A stretch of DNA of 64,000 nt from Flammeovirga pectinis (lineage in GTDB: Bacteria > Bacteroidota > Bacteroidia > Cytophagales > Flammeovirgaceae). The position numbers and the translations under genes were made by a program. The DNA is taken from assembly GCF_003970675.1 (NCBI RefSeq), contig NZ_CP034562.1, positions 62,001-126,000 of the forward strand, given 5' to 3'. The notes below the pieces were generated by a model, which was not told where the DNA came from, made no database searches, and saw only the letters and a program-made list of their open reading frames with translations. This document shows positions 51,121-58,255 of the stretch, piece after piece (within the stretch, counting starts at the first letter, position 1; each line of letters begins with the position of its first letter).

Positions 51121-51519
51121 TTAACGACGAGACATTTTCAATACTTTCTTTTGAATCTTAGTGATATCTTTTCCTTCTTGCATTCCAGATAAGATTGCTT
51201 GGTTATAAGTATCGATTGCCATGTCTTTAGCACCATTTAAAGCAAGGTAATCCCCTTTTACTTCAAGGTTTTCAGAGTTAGCATCGATTGCGATTGATTT
51301 CTCAATCCAAACGTAAGCTTCACTTAAGTTTTTCTTTAATTCAATACATCTATCAGCAGCGTCAGCATAGATAGCCCAATCTGTTGCACTTGCATTTTCT
51401 ACAGTTGCACGTAGTTTATTAATTTCGTTATCCTCATTGTCATGAATACCTGCAAAAGAAGGTGCAGCAGTGATGATAGCTAAAAGTGCGATTGCGAAGA
51501 ATTGTTTTAAAGATTTCAT
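51121..51519 (-). CDS. Small secreted TPR-like protein, paralogue 1
   Basis: A 132-residue protein with a signal peptide (cleavage near SFA-G). The body is two to three TPR-like helices: ASATDWAIYADAADRCIELKKN, LSEAYVWIEKSIAI and LEVKGDYLALNGAKDMAIDTYNQAILSGM. This pattern resembles the C-terminal TPR segment of DUF2911 proteins, but no DUF2911 domain is present. It is a clear paralogue of the protein at 52277-52678. Periplasmic location is inferred; function unknown. Confidence 0.8.
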   Translation of the reverse strand: MKSLKQFFAIALLAIITAAPSFAGIHDNEDNEINKLRATVENASATDWAIYADAADRCIELKKNLSEAYVWIEKSIAIDANSENLEVKGDYLALNGAKDMAIDTYNQAILSGMQEGKDITKIQKKVLKMSRR

Positions 51520-52200
51520 GATTATATATGTTTGTGTTTTTTTAAATCTAAATGTTATATGCTTCTACTAATACCAATTGAGTGCCAATTGTTTCTATAT
51601 TGTTGATTTTCAATTTATTAGATATGGTCTTTGGTGTTTTAAGTGTAATCGTAACGCTGTTTGGGTTGCATAATTGGACATATTGTTCGTAATCGGTCAT
51701 TTTTTAGAGAATCTATCCAAATATTATTCTGATTTACTTTGTTTGTTTACAGTTGTTAAGAATTTAATACTGTTTTTTGATTAAATGACATAATATTCTA
51801 TGGATAACAGGGGTCTAGTTGTGGCTATTTTTATACGCTTCGTTATAGGATTGTTCATTGCAGATGTATCTTTTTAGTAATTTGATAAAAAATGAAGGTT
51901 ATTTTTAATGAAAGTGTAAAAATGTTTATTTTTATCTTTTTATTTTATGGTAATCGTAATAAATACCACCTAGTGGACAGTTTTTGATAAAAAGTGTTCG
52001 GTTTACATTATAGTCGCATTTGTAGTGTTATAAACGTTCGTTTTTAGTCGTTTTAGATAGGCTAGATTTAGATGTTTTCTAATTATTAATAGGTGCTAGA
52101 AACTTAGAACAATTCGATATATCTTATGGAAATCAAAAAGTCTTTAAAATAGAAAAATACCAACAGAAAGGGTAAAGACCTTTTTAGTTAGTATTTATAC
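51520..52200. other. Long non-coding region upstream of paralogue 1 (part of a 757-base gap)
   Basis: No credible gene on either strand. The region shares several short blocks, in the same order and similar spacing, with the region upstream of paralogue 2: CTACTAATAC with GTGCCA (about 47-75 bases from the gene start), TTGGACA-N3-TTGTTCGTAA-type sequence (51674-51692), TATCCAAATA (about 51715), and TAAAAAGTGTTCGGTT (about 51988-52003). It is AT-rich. Confidence 0.65.
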
Positions 52201-52228
52201 TGAACCTTTAAAATAGAGCATAAAAAAA

Positions 52229-52254
52229 GGTGTTGACGAATTAACATCAACACC
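52229..52254 (-). terminator. Intrinsic terminator downstream of paralogue 2
   Basis: An 8-bp inverted repeat (52229-52236 / 52247-52254, arm GGTGTTGA) with a 10-base loop. On the minus strand the stem is followed by seven U. It lies 22 bases beyond the stop at 52277. Confidence 0.82.
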
Positions 52255-52276
52255 ATTTAGCGTGAAATTATATTTA

Positions 52277-52678
52277 TTACTTGTTATACAGTTTCAATAA
52301 TTTTTTTTGTACAGCAGGGATATCATAATCACTGTCATTCATTCCTAAAAGGATAGACTGACGGTAAGCTTCCATTGCCATATTATTAGCACCATTAAGG
52401 GCTAGGTAATCACCTTTCAATTCGTAGTTTCTTGCATTTGGTGCAATTTCTAAAGCTGTATCTAACCAAACATAAGCTTCGCTTAAGTTTGTTCTTAACT
52501 CAATACATCTTTCTGCAGCATCAGCATATACAGTCCAATCATTTGCTGAAGCATTTTCTACACTATTACGAAGCTTAGTGATTTCGTTATCTTCATTATC
52601 TGTACTCGAAGCAAATACGCTTGTTAAAGAGAATAAAGTAACTAATGTGATTGCGAAGATGTTTCTAAGATTTTTCAT
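52277..52678 (-). CDS. Small secreted TPR-like protein, paralogue 2
   Basis: A 133-residue protein with a signal peptide (cleavage near VFA-S) and the same layout as paralogue 1: DNEDNEITKLRNSVENASANDW, YADAAERCIELRTNLSEAYVWLDTAL and KGDYLALNGANNMAMEAYRQSILLGM. The two are about half identical and lie in the same direction with separate terminators, consistent with tandem duplication. Function unknown. Confidence 0.8.
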   Translation of the reverse strand: MKNLRNIFAITLVTLFSLTSVFASSTDNEDNEITKLRNSVENASANDWTVYADAAERCIELRTNLSEAYVWLDTALEIAPNARNYELKGDYLALNGANNMAMEAYRQSILLGMNDSDYDIPAVQKKLLKLYNK

Positions 52679-53191
52679 GACCGTATATATTTAAATAATA
52701 AGAATGAAATTCGATTTTGATTACATTTCTACTAATACTAAATATGTGCCATTGTGGTTTAATTATTTGATTTACAGTGTATTGTAGTTTGTTTTTGGTA
52801 TTTAAAGTGATGTTTGTACACTTTATTTGTTTCTAATTTGGACAGAATGTTCGTAAATGAACAGTTTAAGTTCTTTTTATCCAAATAATATTTTATTTAA
52901 TGGTGTTTTGTAATATATATTCAGAATATATTAAATGTTTATTGTTGTTTTTTGTGTTTAATATTCTGTTTGGGGATTAGATTTATATTGTTGTTGAATT
53001 GAAAATATAGCCCTATTGTGTTTAAAACCTGTTTAGTTACTTTATTTGTAATTTTTCAATCTTTATTTATTGATTTAATAATTATGTAATTAAATCAGTT
53101 AGTTGTTTTGTGATTTTAGTAAAAAGTGTTCGGTTATGTGCTTTACTCTAAAAAAATGGATTTAGGTAGCCTATTTTTAATATTCAAAGCA
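52679..53191. other. Long non-coding region upstream of paralogue 2
   Basis: No credible gene. It carries the blocks shared with paralogue 1's upstream region: CTACTAATACTA and GTGCCATTG (52729-52755), TTGGACAGAATGTTCGTAA (52838-52856), TATCCAAATA (about 52878) and TAAAAAGTGTTCGGTT (about 53119-53134). An insertion sequence begins at 53198. Confidence 0.65.
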
Positions 53192-53197
53192 TTTTTA
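53192..53197. repeat. Left 6-bp target-site duplication of the insertion sequence
   Basis: TTTTTA at 53192-53197, repeated at 54500-54505 on the other side of the element. It is AT-rich and short, so some chance of coincidence remains, but it flanks exact inverted repeats. Confidence 0.75.
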
Positions 53198-54499
53198 CAA
53201 TACTCCGTAGAGTTTTCATTCACATATAAAAAATGGTGATTCGTATATTAAGCTTACAAACAAATCATACGAGATCACCATGAGAAGTATCGAAACACTC
53301 CTATTACAAATATTCAAAAAAATGTCAGAGATAAACAAATGGCAACGCTCATTTTTAATAGATCATTTTACTACTTTGCTCTCTTTTATGGGGAAGAATA
53401 ATTATATGAATTTAGCAAGGTATAGTAAATACAATGAAGGAAGTATTCGGTCTTGGTCTCAACGTACTTTTGATTATTTGACATTCAATATTCTTTTGAT
53501 AGAATCACTATTCAAAGAATCTCGTATCATCGCTTTGGATCCGAGTTATATTTCTAAAAGTGGTAAAGCAACACCAGGAGTTAGTTATTTTTGGTCAGGT
53601 TGTGCAGGTGCTCAAAAATGGGGGTTAGAAATAACAGGACTTGCAAGTGTAGGTTTAGAAAGTAAAACAGCAATGCATTTATCAGCCCACCAAAGTATCC
53701 CTGATGGTAAAGGCTTTAATTTACTTTCGCATTGTGCTAATTTAGTAGTGAATAATAAGGAGAAATACTTAAAAATATCTGATACTGTTGTAGTTGATGG
53801 GTATTTCTCAAAATATACATTCGTGAACCCTGTGACAGAATCAGGTTTTAAGGTGGTTAGTAAATTTGCTAAAAATATCTATTTACGTTATAAGTATACA
53901 GGAAAACCAACAGGAAAAAAAGGACGTCCAAAGACTTTTGACGGACGTGTAAAGTTCCAGAAATTGAATATGAACCATTTCCAATTAGTGACGGCAGAAG
54001 AAAATATGAAAATATATGAAGCAATTGTTCACAGTAGAAGCTTAAAACGTTGGGTGAAATGTGTAGTGGTAATCACCGTACTTGATACTGGTAAAGAAAG
54101 AAGAGAAATACTTTTTTCTACAGATCTAACAATGGAAGCAGAAGAGGTTATAGAAAGTTATCGCTTACGTTTTCAAATTGAATTTTTGTATAGAGATGCC
54201 AAGCAATTTGTGGGGCTCAATTACGGGCAATCAAGAAGTGAAATAAAAATTCATAATCATGTAAATATGTCCTTAACAGCAGTATCAATTGCCAAGGCAA
54301 TTCACTATTTTAACACGGATGTTATGGAGAAAAAAACATTTTCTTTGTCGAGTATTAAGACTCAGTATTTCAATAAGATGTACCTCGGAAAAATTATTAC
54401 TTGTTTCGGAATTAATGCCGAAACGAACATTAATTCCGAACATATTACTCAATTGGAGAATTTTGGCTGTATAGCTGCTTAAAACTCTACGGAGTATTG
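53198..54499 (+). mobile_element. IS4-family insertion sequence, apparently intact
   Basis: A 1302-bp element bounded by 19-bp perfect inverted repeats (53198-53216 and 54481-54499, CAATACTCCGTAGAGTTTT) and by a direct 6-bp duplication TTTTTA. It contains one full-length transposase gene (53280-54482), whose stop codon TAA overlaps the right repeat. Identical repeats, an intact reading frame and a perfect duplication suggest a fairly recent insertion. It did not interrupt any gene that I can see. Confidence 0.92.
53280..54482 (+). CDS. IS4-family DDE transposase
   Basis: A 400-residue transposase. The DDE triad is visible as Asp in IALDPSYISKSGKATPG, Asp in VVVDGYFSKY, and Glu in the IS4 signature Y-(2)-R-(3)-E-(6)-K, exactly matched by YRLRFQIEFLYRDAK. 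The N-terminal part (about 1-75) is helical and likely binds the inverted repeats. The frame is uninterrupted, so the element may be active. Confidence 0.92.
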   Translation: MRSIETLLLQIFKKMSEINKWQRSFLIDHFTTLLSFMGKNNYMNLARYSKYNEGSIRSWSQRTFDYLTFNILLIESLFKESRIIALDPSYISKSGKATPGVSYFWSGCAGAQKWGLEITGLASVGLESKTAMHLSAHQSIPDGKGFNLLSHCANLVVNNKEKYLKISDTVVVDGYFSKYTFVNPVTESGFKVVSKFAKNIYLRYKYTGKPTGKKGRPKTFDGRVKFQKLNMNHFQLVTAEENMKIYEAIVHSRSLKRWVKCVVVITVLDTGKERREILFSTDLTMEAEEVIESYRLRFQIEFLYRDAKQFVGLNYGQSRSEIKIHNHVNMSLTAVSIAKAIHYFNTDVMEKKTFSLSSIKTQYFNKMYLGKIITCFGINAETNINSEHITQLENFGCIAA

Positions 54500-54505
54500 T
54501 TTTTA
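54500..54505. repeat. Right 6-bp target-site duplication of the insertion sequence
   Basis: TTTTTA, identical to 53192-53197, immediately after the right inverted repeat. Confidence 0.75.
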
Positions 54506-56149: not shown

Positions 56150-58255
56150 TTGAGTGTTTCATTTATAGTACTTCTCTTTTTATTTGGTCCATCAGATAGT
56201 TTAACTACTGTATTAAGCGATACAGTTATTATAGATCAGCAGTTGGAACAGTTTTACTCACATTACAAACAAAGAAGTGACAGTGCAGCCTATTTTGCAA
56301 AAGAAGCATTACGTCTTTCAAACCAAATTAATGATATAAGCAGAGCAGGAAAATCGGCTCATTATTTAGGTGTTTATTATCATGGTTTAAATATAAATTA
56401 TGACAGTGCTCAGAAATACTATCTACTTGCTACAGACCCTGGTAGAACTCCCTATGAATTATGTATGACGTATACTAACCTTGGTAATATTTACCATAAT
56501 ATGCAGTATGAAAAAACAGCAATGCGTAATTTAATTTTGGCTGAAAAATATGCTTTAGAAGCTAAGAGTAATTCAAAACTAAGTAATATCTATACCCTAA
56601 TAGGAAGTATACTTTTAGGTACAAAACAGTACGATAGAGCAATTAGTTATTATAATAAAGCATATAACCTTGCTTTAGAAGATGATAAGCCCAAAAGGCA
56701 ATCAAATGCAGTTAATAATATTGGTATTGTTTATAAGGAAAAGCAAGCGTACGGAAAATCAATTAAATATTTTAAACAGAGTTATTTAATAAGGCAACAA
56801 CATGGTACGCCAAAACATTTATTAGAATCCTGTATTAATATTGCAGATAGCTATTTGGAGTATGATAAATTAGATTCTGCTAAGACGTATATTAACCTTG
56901 CTCAAAAATTATATACTGAAAATAAGATAGATAGCTGGTCTTCAGAGTTTTTGATCTTAAAAGCACATTTTTATAAAAAGATAAAAAAATATACTAAAGC
57001 AGAGAAGCTTTATAAAGAAGGTTTAGCCATTGCAGAAGAAAGAAAAAGTTTAAAAGATCAAACAATAGCCAAAAAGGGATTAGCTGATATTTATACAAAA
57101 ACACATCAGTATAGAAAAGCCAATATTCAGTTATCTAGTTTTCTAGAAATTGATGAGAAAGCGGACAGTATTAAGGCGAGTATAGAAGTAGCTGATATTC
57201 TTTTAGGTTTTGAAGTCGGTAAAACAGAAGACGAAAATAAAGCCTTAAAACTAGCAGCAGAGCAGACAAAGCAACTATTACTCTACCAAAGAACACTATT
57301 ATTTATATCGTCATTAAGTTTAATTTTATTGATAATACTAATTAGTTACCTCAATAAATCGTTTAGAAAATCTAAAATTTTAAACTTAGAATTAGAAGAT
57401 AGTTTAGGTATTGTTAACCATCAGAAAAAAGAAATAGAAAAAAAGAATACAGATTTATCAATCGCTTTAGAAGTAGTGAATGTACAGAAAGAACAGCTCA
57501 CTTCTACAAATAATAAATTGCATGAAAGTATTCGTTATGCTAAAGGATTACAATCATCAATGCTTCCTTCTAAAGATAAGTTGGATGAACTCTTAGGGGA
57601 TCATTTTATATTCTTTAAACCCAAAGACCAAGTATCAGGAGATTTTTATTGGGTATATGAGGTAGATAACATTAAGTATGTAGTCTGTGCAGATTGTACT
57701 GGACATGGTGTACCAGGTGCTTTTTTATCTGTTCTTGGTGTAGCAAGTTTAGAATATATCATAAATATTGAAGGTGTAAGAAAGCCATCTGAAATCTTAT
57801 ATAAAATTAATAATAGGTTTATTGCCCTTTTAAAAGATTTATCAAATTATATTCAAGACGGAATGGATATTTCTGTGGTTGCTTACCATTTAGATAAAGA
57901 GGAAATTGAATTTAGTGGTGCAAGAGCAAAAGTTTATTTAAAACAAGACAATAGCTTAAAACTCTTCAATACTGTAAAAAAAGCAGTAGGAGAAGAACAG
58001 AATACAACTTTTACAGATACTATTGTTAAAGTAAAAGAAGGAGATACATTGTATTTATCTACAGATGGTTTTAAAGACCAATTTGGTGGGAAAAAAGGGA
58101 AAAAATTAATGCATAAAAACTTTAAAATATTATTGGATGAAATATCTGAAATGGATACAAACCAACAATATAAGGTTATACGAAATTCATTTAATGAGTG
58201 GAAAGGTTCTTATGATCAAGTAGATGATGTATTAGTGATAGGTATAAAGATATAA
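56150..58255 (+). CDS. TPR-containing membrane protein with SpoIIE-type PP2C phosphatase domain
   Basis: About 701 residues. A hydrophobic N-terminus (signal or anchor) is followed by six or so TPR repeats (about 35-330; ISYYNKAYNLALEDD, SIKYFKQSYLIRQQHG), a membrane helix (about 380-400), a coiled coil (about 405-460) and a PP2C/SpoIIE-like phosphatase (about 475-701; FKPKDQVSGDFYWVYEV, ADCTGHGVPGAFLSVLG, DGMDISVVAY, LSTDGFKDQFGG, DDVLVIGIKI). Metal-binding Asp residues are conserved. It is the Bacteroidota version of an RsbU-type signalling phosphatase with a periplasmic sensor. No ATG is available near the 5' end; the TTG at 56150 is used here. The next gene starts 2 bases after its stop. 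Confidence 0.87.
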   Translation: MSVSFIVLLFLFGPSDSLTTVLSDTVIIDQQLEQFYSHYKQRSDSAAYFAKEALRLSNQINDISRAGKSAHYLGVYYHGLNINYDSAQKYYLLATDPGRTPYELCMTYTNLGNIYHNMQYEKTAMRNLILAEKYALEAKSNSKLSNIYTLIGSILLGTKQYDRAISYYNKAYNLALEDDKPKRQSNAVNNIGIVYKEKQAYGKSIKYFKQSYLIRQQHGTPKHLLESCINIADSYLEYDKLDSAKTYINLAQKLYTENKIDSWSSEFLILKAHFYKKIKKYTKAEKLYKEGLAIAEERKSLKDQTIAKKGLADIYTKTHQYRKANIQLSSFLEIDEKADSIKASIEVADILLGFEVGKTEDENKALKLAAEQTKQLLLYQRTLLFISSLSLILLIILISYLNKSFRKSKILNLELEDSLGIVNHQKKEIEKKNTDLSIALEVVNVQKEQLTSTNNKLHESIRYAKGLQSSMLPSKDKLDELLGDHFIFFKPKDQVSGDFYWVYEVDNIKYVVCADCTGHGVPGAFLSVLGVASLEYIINIEGVRKPSEILYKINNRFIALLKDLSNYIQDGMDISVVAYHLDKEEIEFSGARAKVYLKQDNSLKLFNTVKKAVGEEQNTTFTDTIVKVKEGDTLYLSTDGFKDQFGGKKGKKLMHKNFKILLDEISEMDTNQQYKVIRNSFNEWKGSYDQVDDVLVIGIKI

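Follow-up and report, generated by a model that had tools for sequence, protein, structure and literature searches.

Our findings point to the two long intergenic regions upstream of a pair of tandem genes for small exported proteins in Flammeovirga pectinis as sigma-54 (RpoN)-dependent enhancer-promoters, a reading that we hold to be very probable for each region. Sequence comparison gives the conserved stretches the look of enhancers, DNA switches that act from a distance, and not of a structured RNA leader; the arrangement recurs throughout the genus and, less clearly, in relatives further away. The window, by which we mean the whole 64-kb stretch of DNA analyzed (G000:C1:62001-126000), belongs to a genome of 6.68 Mb in 3 contigs, which together with eight other genomes made up a comparison set of nine Flammeovirga-like genomes. 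The features of the locus, in window coordinates, are as follows.

51121..51519, minus strand: copy a, encoding a 132-aa exported TPR-like protein (ORF, domain search, structure model)
51569..51588, minus strand: copy a, predicted sigma-54 -24/-12 element TTGGCACTCAATTGGTATTA (sequence comparison)
51596..51608, minus strand: copy a, box position upstream of -24, AATCAACAATATA, which misses the strict IHF-like pattern
51637..51647, minus strand: copy a, conserved TACACTTAAAA, 59 bp upstream of -24
51675..51691, minus strand: copy a, putative proximal enhancer dyad (UAS) TACGAACAATATGTCCA, 103 bp upstream of -24
51717..51731, minus strand: copy a, dyad-like Site II CAGAATAATATTTGG
51988..52003, minus strand: copy a, distal (FAR) half-site AACCGAACACTTTTTA
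52277..52678, minus strand: copy b, encoding a 133-aa exported TPR-like protein (ORF, domain search)
52733..52752, minus strand: copy b, predicted sigma-54 -24/-12 element ATGGCACATATTTAGTATTA
52760..52772, minus strand: copy b, IHF-consensus-like box AATCAAATAATTA
52839..52855, minus strand: copy b, putative proximal enhancer dyad (UAS) TACGAACATTCTGTCCA, 103 bp upstream of -24
52881..52895, minus strand: copy b, Site II TAAAATATTATTTGG
53120..53135, minus strand: copy b, distal (FAR) half-site AACCGAACACTTTTTA

Copies a and b are tandem paralogues (56% identical) and are adjoined by a gene that resembles trpA by eye. Their TPR matches score under the Pfam cut-offs, and copy b has a sub-cut-off NCBIfam match to the TPR protein PrsT (19.3 vs 312.2 bits). 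The structure model of copy a (pLDDT 86.7) consists of helical hairpins, and most of its PDB matches, none below E 0.001, carry TPR domains in their titles. Relatives number 7-10 in each of the nine genomes, among them 2-4 close paralogues at least 53% identical to copy a (28 in total), and the named relatives with the same protein are Flammeovirga throughout (8 loci). At E <= 1e-8 the exported TPR family is present in 35 of 291 genomes of the order, nine of the 35 being the genus itself. Elsewhere in the window (56150-58255) lies a TPR-rich protein whose C-terminal half appears by eye to be PP2C/SpoIIE phosphatase-like.

The initial annotation had described duplicated small secreted protein genes with shared upstream blocks in a fixed order, and this is what the locus holds, with offsets and strand as it gave them. 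Counted in gene orientation from the gene start, the -24/-12 block starts at -69 in copy a and -74 in copy b, a fifth shared block lies near -126 and -131 (CACTTAAAACACC and CACTTTAAATACC), the dyad block TTACGAACAnnnTGTCCAA (17/19 identical) starts at -173 and -178, the Site II block at -211 and -216 (AGAATAATATTTGG and AAAATATTATTTGG), and the distal block AACCGAACACTTTTTA (16/16 identical) at -484 and -457. A scan of 520 bp from each copy, using 19-base windows with at least 16 identities and an offset difference of at most 40 bp, gave 15 overlapping windows; 40 dinucleotide shuffles of copy a averaged 0.25 and never exceeded 5. The 17-of-19-base block and the identical distal block noted earlier are real and stand above chance, while the promoter block falls under the scan threshold between the two copies and was recognized through the genus alignment. 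A genome-wide search for further copies, as the initial annotation had proposed, found TAAAAAGTGTTCGGTT with at most one mismatch at only two places in 6.68 Mb, upstream of copies a and b, against one for the reversed-pattern control. An IS element (window 53197-54500), bounded by 20-bp inverted repeats ACAATACTCCGTAGAGTTTT, lies just upstream of copy b and begins about 60 bp past its FAR block, leaving every block intact; its 400-aa transposase (53280-54482) matches the NCBIfam IS701 family best, at 113 bits, below the 170 cut-off.

The block nearest the gene carries the evidence for the promoter, a call that we regard as well supported by the alignment. It takes the form TGGCA-N6-T[A/G]G[T/C]A, starting at -65 to -74, in 25 of the 27 close-paralogue upstream regions compared (one of the 28, G007:C116:193611, was left out, its locus missing). 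These 25 promoters comprise 23 distinct sequences. TGGCA, the T and the second G never vary among them, and the two G's lie 12 bp apart (first G to first G), as in -24/-12 promoters. Scored against a sigma-54 consensus, the 25 promoters each gave a shuffle p of 0.005-0.03. The genome of the window encodes RpoN with its three sigma-54 domains. A weak point is that both copies have T where the canonical base after the G of the -12 element is C, as do 18 of the 23 distinct sequences (C in 5). The groES promoters of the genus served as calibration, since groES is listed among the sigma-54-type promoters of Flavobacterium psychrophilum in the available part of that study (PMC9723704). Eight of nine were usable, L170 being left out because it lies near a contig end and the wrong start was picked. 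They read TTGGCACACTCTTGGCA, TTGGCACACTTCATGCA and TTGGCACACTTCATGTA, with TTGGCACATTTCATGTT in the genome of the window, and vary between GC and GT at -12; GT therefore seems natural in this genus, which answers the weak point in part. The two GT versions of the groES promoter nearest the window (those of its own genome and of G003) fall short of p <= 0.05, at 0.075 and 0.080.

Further from copy a the signal thins. The 18 single-gene regions of distant paralogues within the genus included five without a usable start (L087, L091, L093, L100, L103) and one that was parsed, gave no sigma-54-like match and was left out of the scoring (L097); of the 12 scored, among which L086 and L092 duplicate rows G000x and G003x, six reached p <= 0.05 for a sigma-54 site. 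Order-level relatives did so in 5 of 12, with 7 of 12 above, and two of those that reached it (L148, L152) have GC at -12. Several distant relatives carry CGnACA-type half-sites by eye.

Upstream of the promoter, a dyad of the form GAACAnnnTGTYC (the UAS) is present in 25 of the 27 close paralogues, and both the -24 element and the dyad are missing from the two others (G006_3 and G002_3). Its distance to -24 is 103 bp (14 regions), 104 bp (6) or 113 bp (5), the classes differing by one helical turn through a 10-bp alignment gap; tolerance of 10-11 bp indels has been proposed as a fingerprint of sigma-54 enhancers, natural and synthetic, in the accessible portion of one study (PMC4740811). The conserved TACACTTAAAA lies 59 or 69 bp above -24 in 20 of 27, and a second dyad, Site II (CAGAATAWTATTYTG), 39-40 bp above the UAS dyad in 21 of 27 by best match. 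The FAR element, similar to CAAAAnCGKACACTT and containing a CGnACAC half-site, is found in 23 of 27, placed 282-316 bp above the dyad and 386-426 bp above -24. Its helical phasing is only suggestive (Rayleigh p 0.007 over 11 distinct distances, orthologues not being independent), and any role that we give it is tentative. An IHF-like box, WATCARN4TTR, a loosened form of the IHF consensus, occurs in 17 of 51 rows (only rows scoring 10 or more were used) against 0.5 expected from mononucleotide shuffles, a count in which orthologues are not independent and two paralogues enter twice. It is present in 16 of 41 distinct family promoters, copy a not among them, and in none of eight groES promoters.

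Within the 64-kb window, WTGGCA-N6-TnGYA and GAACAnnnTGTYC occur only at copies a and b. Across the genome, UAS-like sites with at most one mismatch number 53 against 103 for the reversed control, and two of the four exact ones are those described here. Among the 30 of 53 sites that were read, only copies a and b have a relaxed -24/-12 match at the expected 95 bp, and two further sites have one at other distances; this pairing of UAS with promoter at copies a and b alone would fit a regulator that is dedicated, not global. The canonical TTGGCACN5TTGC is not enriched genome-wide (35 vs 34 for the reversed control), and a search for extra targets by the canonical -24/-12 or the UAS alone gave no excess over the reversed pattern. 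The promoter pattern with one mismatch has three additional matches in the genome, which we rejected as promoters by eye, two (L083, L084) lying inside long ORFs and one (L085) facing a gene end; a related promoter pattern has one additional exact match (L034). The LexA-type box of Bacillus is GAAC-N4-GTTC, and it was rejected as an account of the dyad because in the latter GAAC and GTYC are five bases apart.

In the model that we propose, the -24/-12 element is where RNA polymerase with RpoN would be positioned, and the usual distance between -12 and +1 would place the start of the message about 42-47 nt ahead of the ATG. The GAACAnnnTGTYC dyad, about 103 or 113 bp further up, would be the binding site of a dedicated NtrC-type activator. 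The distal CGnACAC half-site at 386-426 bp and a bend in the DNA would probably help this activator, which would loop back and open the promoter. A two-component signal may in this way switch on the small exported TPR proteins. Site II and the IHF-like box could serve the same assembly.

Three explanations had been offered for conservation so far from the genes, and of these the distant operator set is supported, given conserved dyads and half-sites spaced near-helically from the sigma-54 element; the two RNA readings are not supported. A structured 5' leader extending about 450 nt ahead of each gene, such as a riboswitch or attenuator, would account for conservation that reaches about -480, and the region upstream of copy b (52679-53140, minus strand) does fold better than its shuffles (z -3.10). 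However, the upstream region of copy a folds worse than its own (single-strand z +1.65), so the copies disagree, and the search for conserved RNA structure that had been suggested returned 0 consensus pairs from RNAalifold in 19 upstream regions. The predicted promoter, moreover, sits between the blocks and the gene; transcription from it would begin only about 42-47 nt ahead of the coding sequence, which would make the far blocks sites in the DNA. The conserved columns also bunch in short dyad-like blocks at near-helical spacings, and no Rfam family reached its gathering score in the sequence tested. We consider a leader highly improbable for these reasons, and a small RNA gene within each intergenic region hardly deserves more credence: conserved regions of about 450 bp without a long ORF would leave room for one, but the same lack of consensus structure and of an Rfam family at gathering score, together with the gathering of conserved positions in short blocks, speaks against it.

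An ordinary sigma-A-dependent regulator, whether a repressor or a class I activator, acting on GAACAnnnTGTYC is a somewhat more serious contender, though still an improbable one; TGGCA would then be the site of another factor or part of an unusual promoter. The dyad has the generic two-fold shape of an operator and copies a and b do lack the C at -12, but groES shows the same GT/GC variation, the -24/-12 geometry is exact, and the dyad lies about 100 bp up, in spacing classes one turn apart. In addition, only 2 of 27 regions have TAnnTTTG, given as the sigma-A -7 box in the available part of the F. psychrophilum study (PMC9723704), in the 150 bp upstream.

The genome of the window encodes seven strong bEBPs (enhancer-binding proteins). 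One of these, L069 (G000:C2:895161), is an NtrC-like response regulator of REC-AAA-HTH_8 architecture, and it is the sole one of the seven with orthologues significantly commoner alongside the TPR family. A reciprocal orthologue is found in 11 of 12 genomes with the exported TPR family, and without the family in 4 of 11 at >=55% identity (p 0.009) or 2 of 11 at >=60% (p 0.0006), values to be read in light of seven proteins, three cut-offs tried and genomes that are not independent. The tally covers 23 analyst-chosen genomes, namely 12 of the 26 family genomes outside the genus and 11 of the 256 without the family; the 12 have a short relative of about 130 aa, and the other 14 were matched in longer proteins only. 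In G252 the bEBPs covered were 9 out of 13, and in G024 they were 2 out of 3. In G098 the TPR family is present and the L069-type regulator was not found. L067- and L068-type proteins are near-universal across the tallied genomes and hence uninformative on co-occurrence; L068 appears by eye to lack an HTH at its end. The L069-type gene lies about 3 kb from a TPR-family gene in G009 and 21 kb in G164, and is not near one in the other nine genomes that have it. The dyad, as a sign of autoregulation, was absent near the bEBP genes at all seven loci. We name this response regulator, tentatively, as the best candidate for the activator of copies a and b.

The kind of control predicted here is already known, and copies a and b would belong to a new regulon under it. 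Sigma-54 promoters of the NtrC/LuxO type, exemplified by the Vibrio qrr enhancers in the accessible portion of PMC4740811, are alike in their -24/-12 element, in a dyad about 100 bp away, in one-turn spacing classes, and in having RpoN and NtrC-type activators in the genome. Copies a and b differ from them in GT rather than GC at -12 and in the extra Site II and distal half-site 386-426 bp above -24, and their activator is a candidate. The closest analogue in logic is the PrsK/PrsR-linked control of PEP-CTERM genes in Proteobacteria, where, as far as the available text of two papers goes (PMC1569441, PMC9850573), single exported-protein genes likewise have long intergenic regions holding sigma-54 and activator motifs, and an NtrC-like response regulator again matches them in phylogenetic profile; the first paper places the control motifs in Proteobacteria only (PMC1569441). 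Unlike PrsR, L069 scores 414.3 bits against that family (TIGR02915, its best NCBIfam match), below the 502.6 cut-off, and the targets here are TPR proteins with no PEP-CTERM domain among their Pfam (E<=1) and NCBIfam (E<=0.01) matches. In the same phylum, the sigma-54 (SM4) regulon of F. psychrophilum has -24/-12 promoters, including groES, one site being backed by mutagenesis; the available part of that paper lists chaperone, envelope and gliding genes as targets, with neither an exported TPR pair nor upstream dyads (PMC9723704). Accessible parts of two further papers give general background (PMC12316311, PMC7057263).

A broader proposal is that a PrsR-like two-component activator and sigma-54 control small exported TPR proteins across the order through phased enhancers at about 100 and 390-425 bp, as another phylum's equivalent of proteobacterial PEP-CTERM control; we find this conceivable and hold it more loosely than the choice of activator. 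Our literature search, which mostly took in papers outside subscription journals, found nothing that joins Flammeovirga with sigma-54 and, among the titles and abstract openings listed, none on this regulon. The locus offers a first lead on the control of an exported TPR protein family. It also offers a small collection of natural Bacteroidota sigma-54 promoters, open to testing, in which one-turn indels, a distal element and a candidate activator come together.

Two side observations concern other possible activators. Four groES regions (L167-L169, L172) carry a different dyad, TTTGTCAGTAAAACTGACA, directly above the sigma-54-like promoter, which suggests that another activator may serve the chaperones. 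Two further bEBP genes of the window's genome, L065 and L066 (G000:C1:386267 and 1577793), are each followed by what appears by eye to be a short Hpt phosphotransfer-like gene, and these neighbors suggest a phosphorelay into sigma-54.
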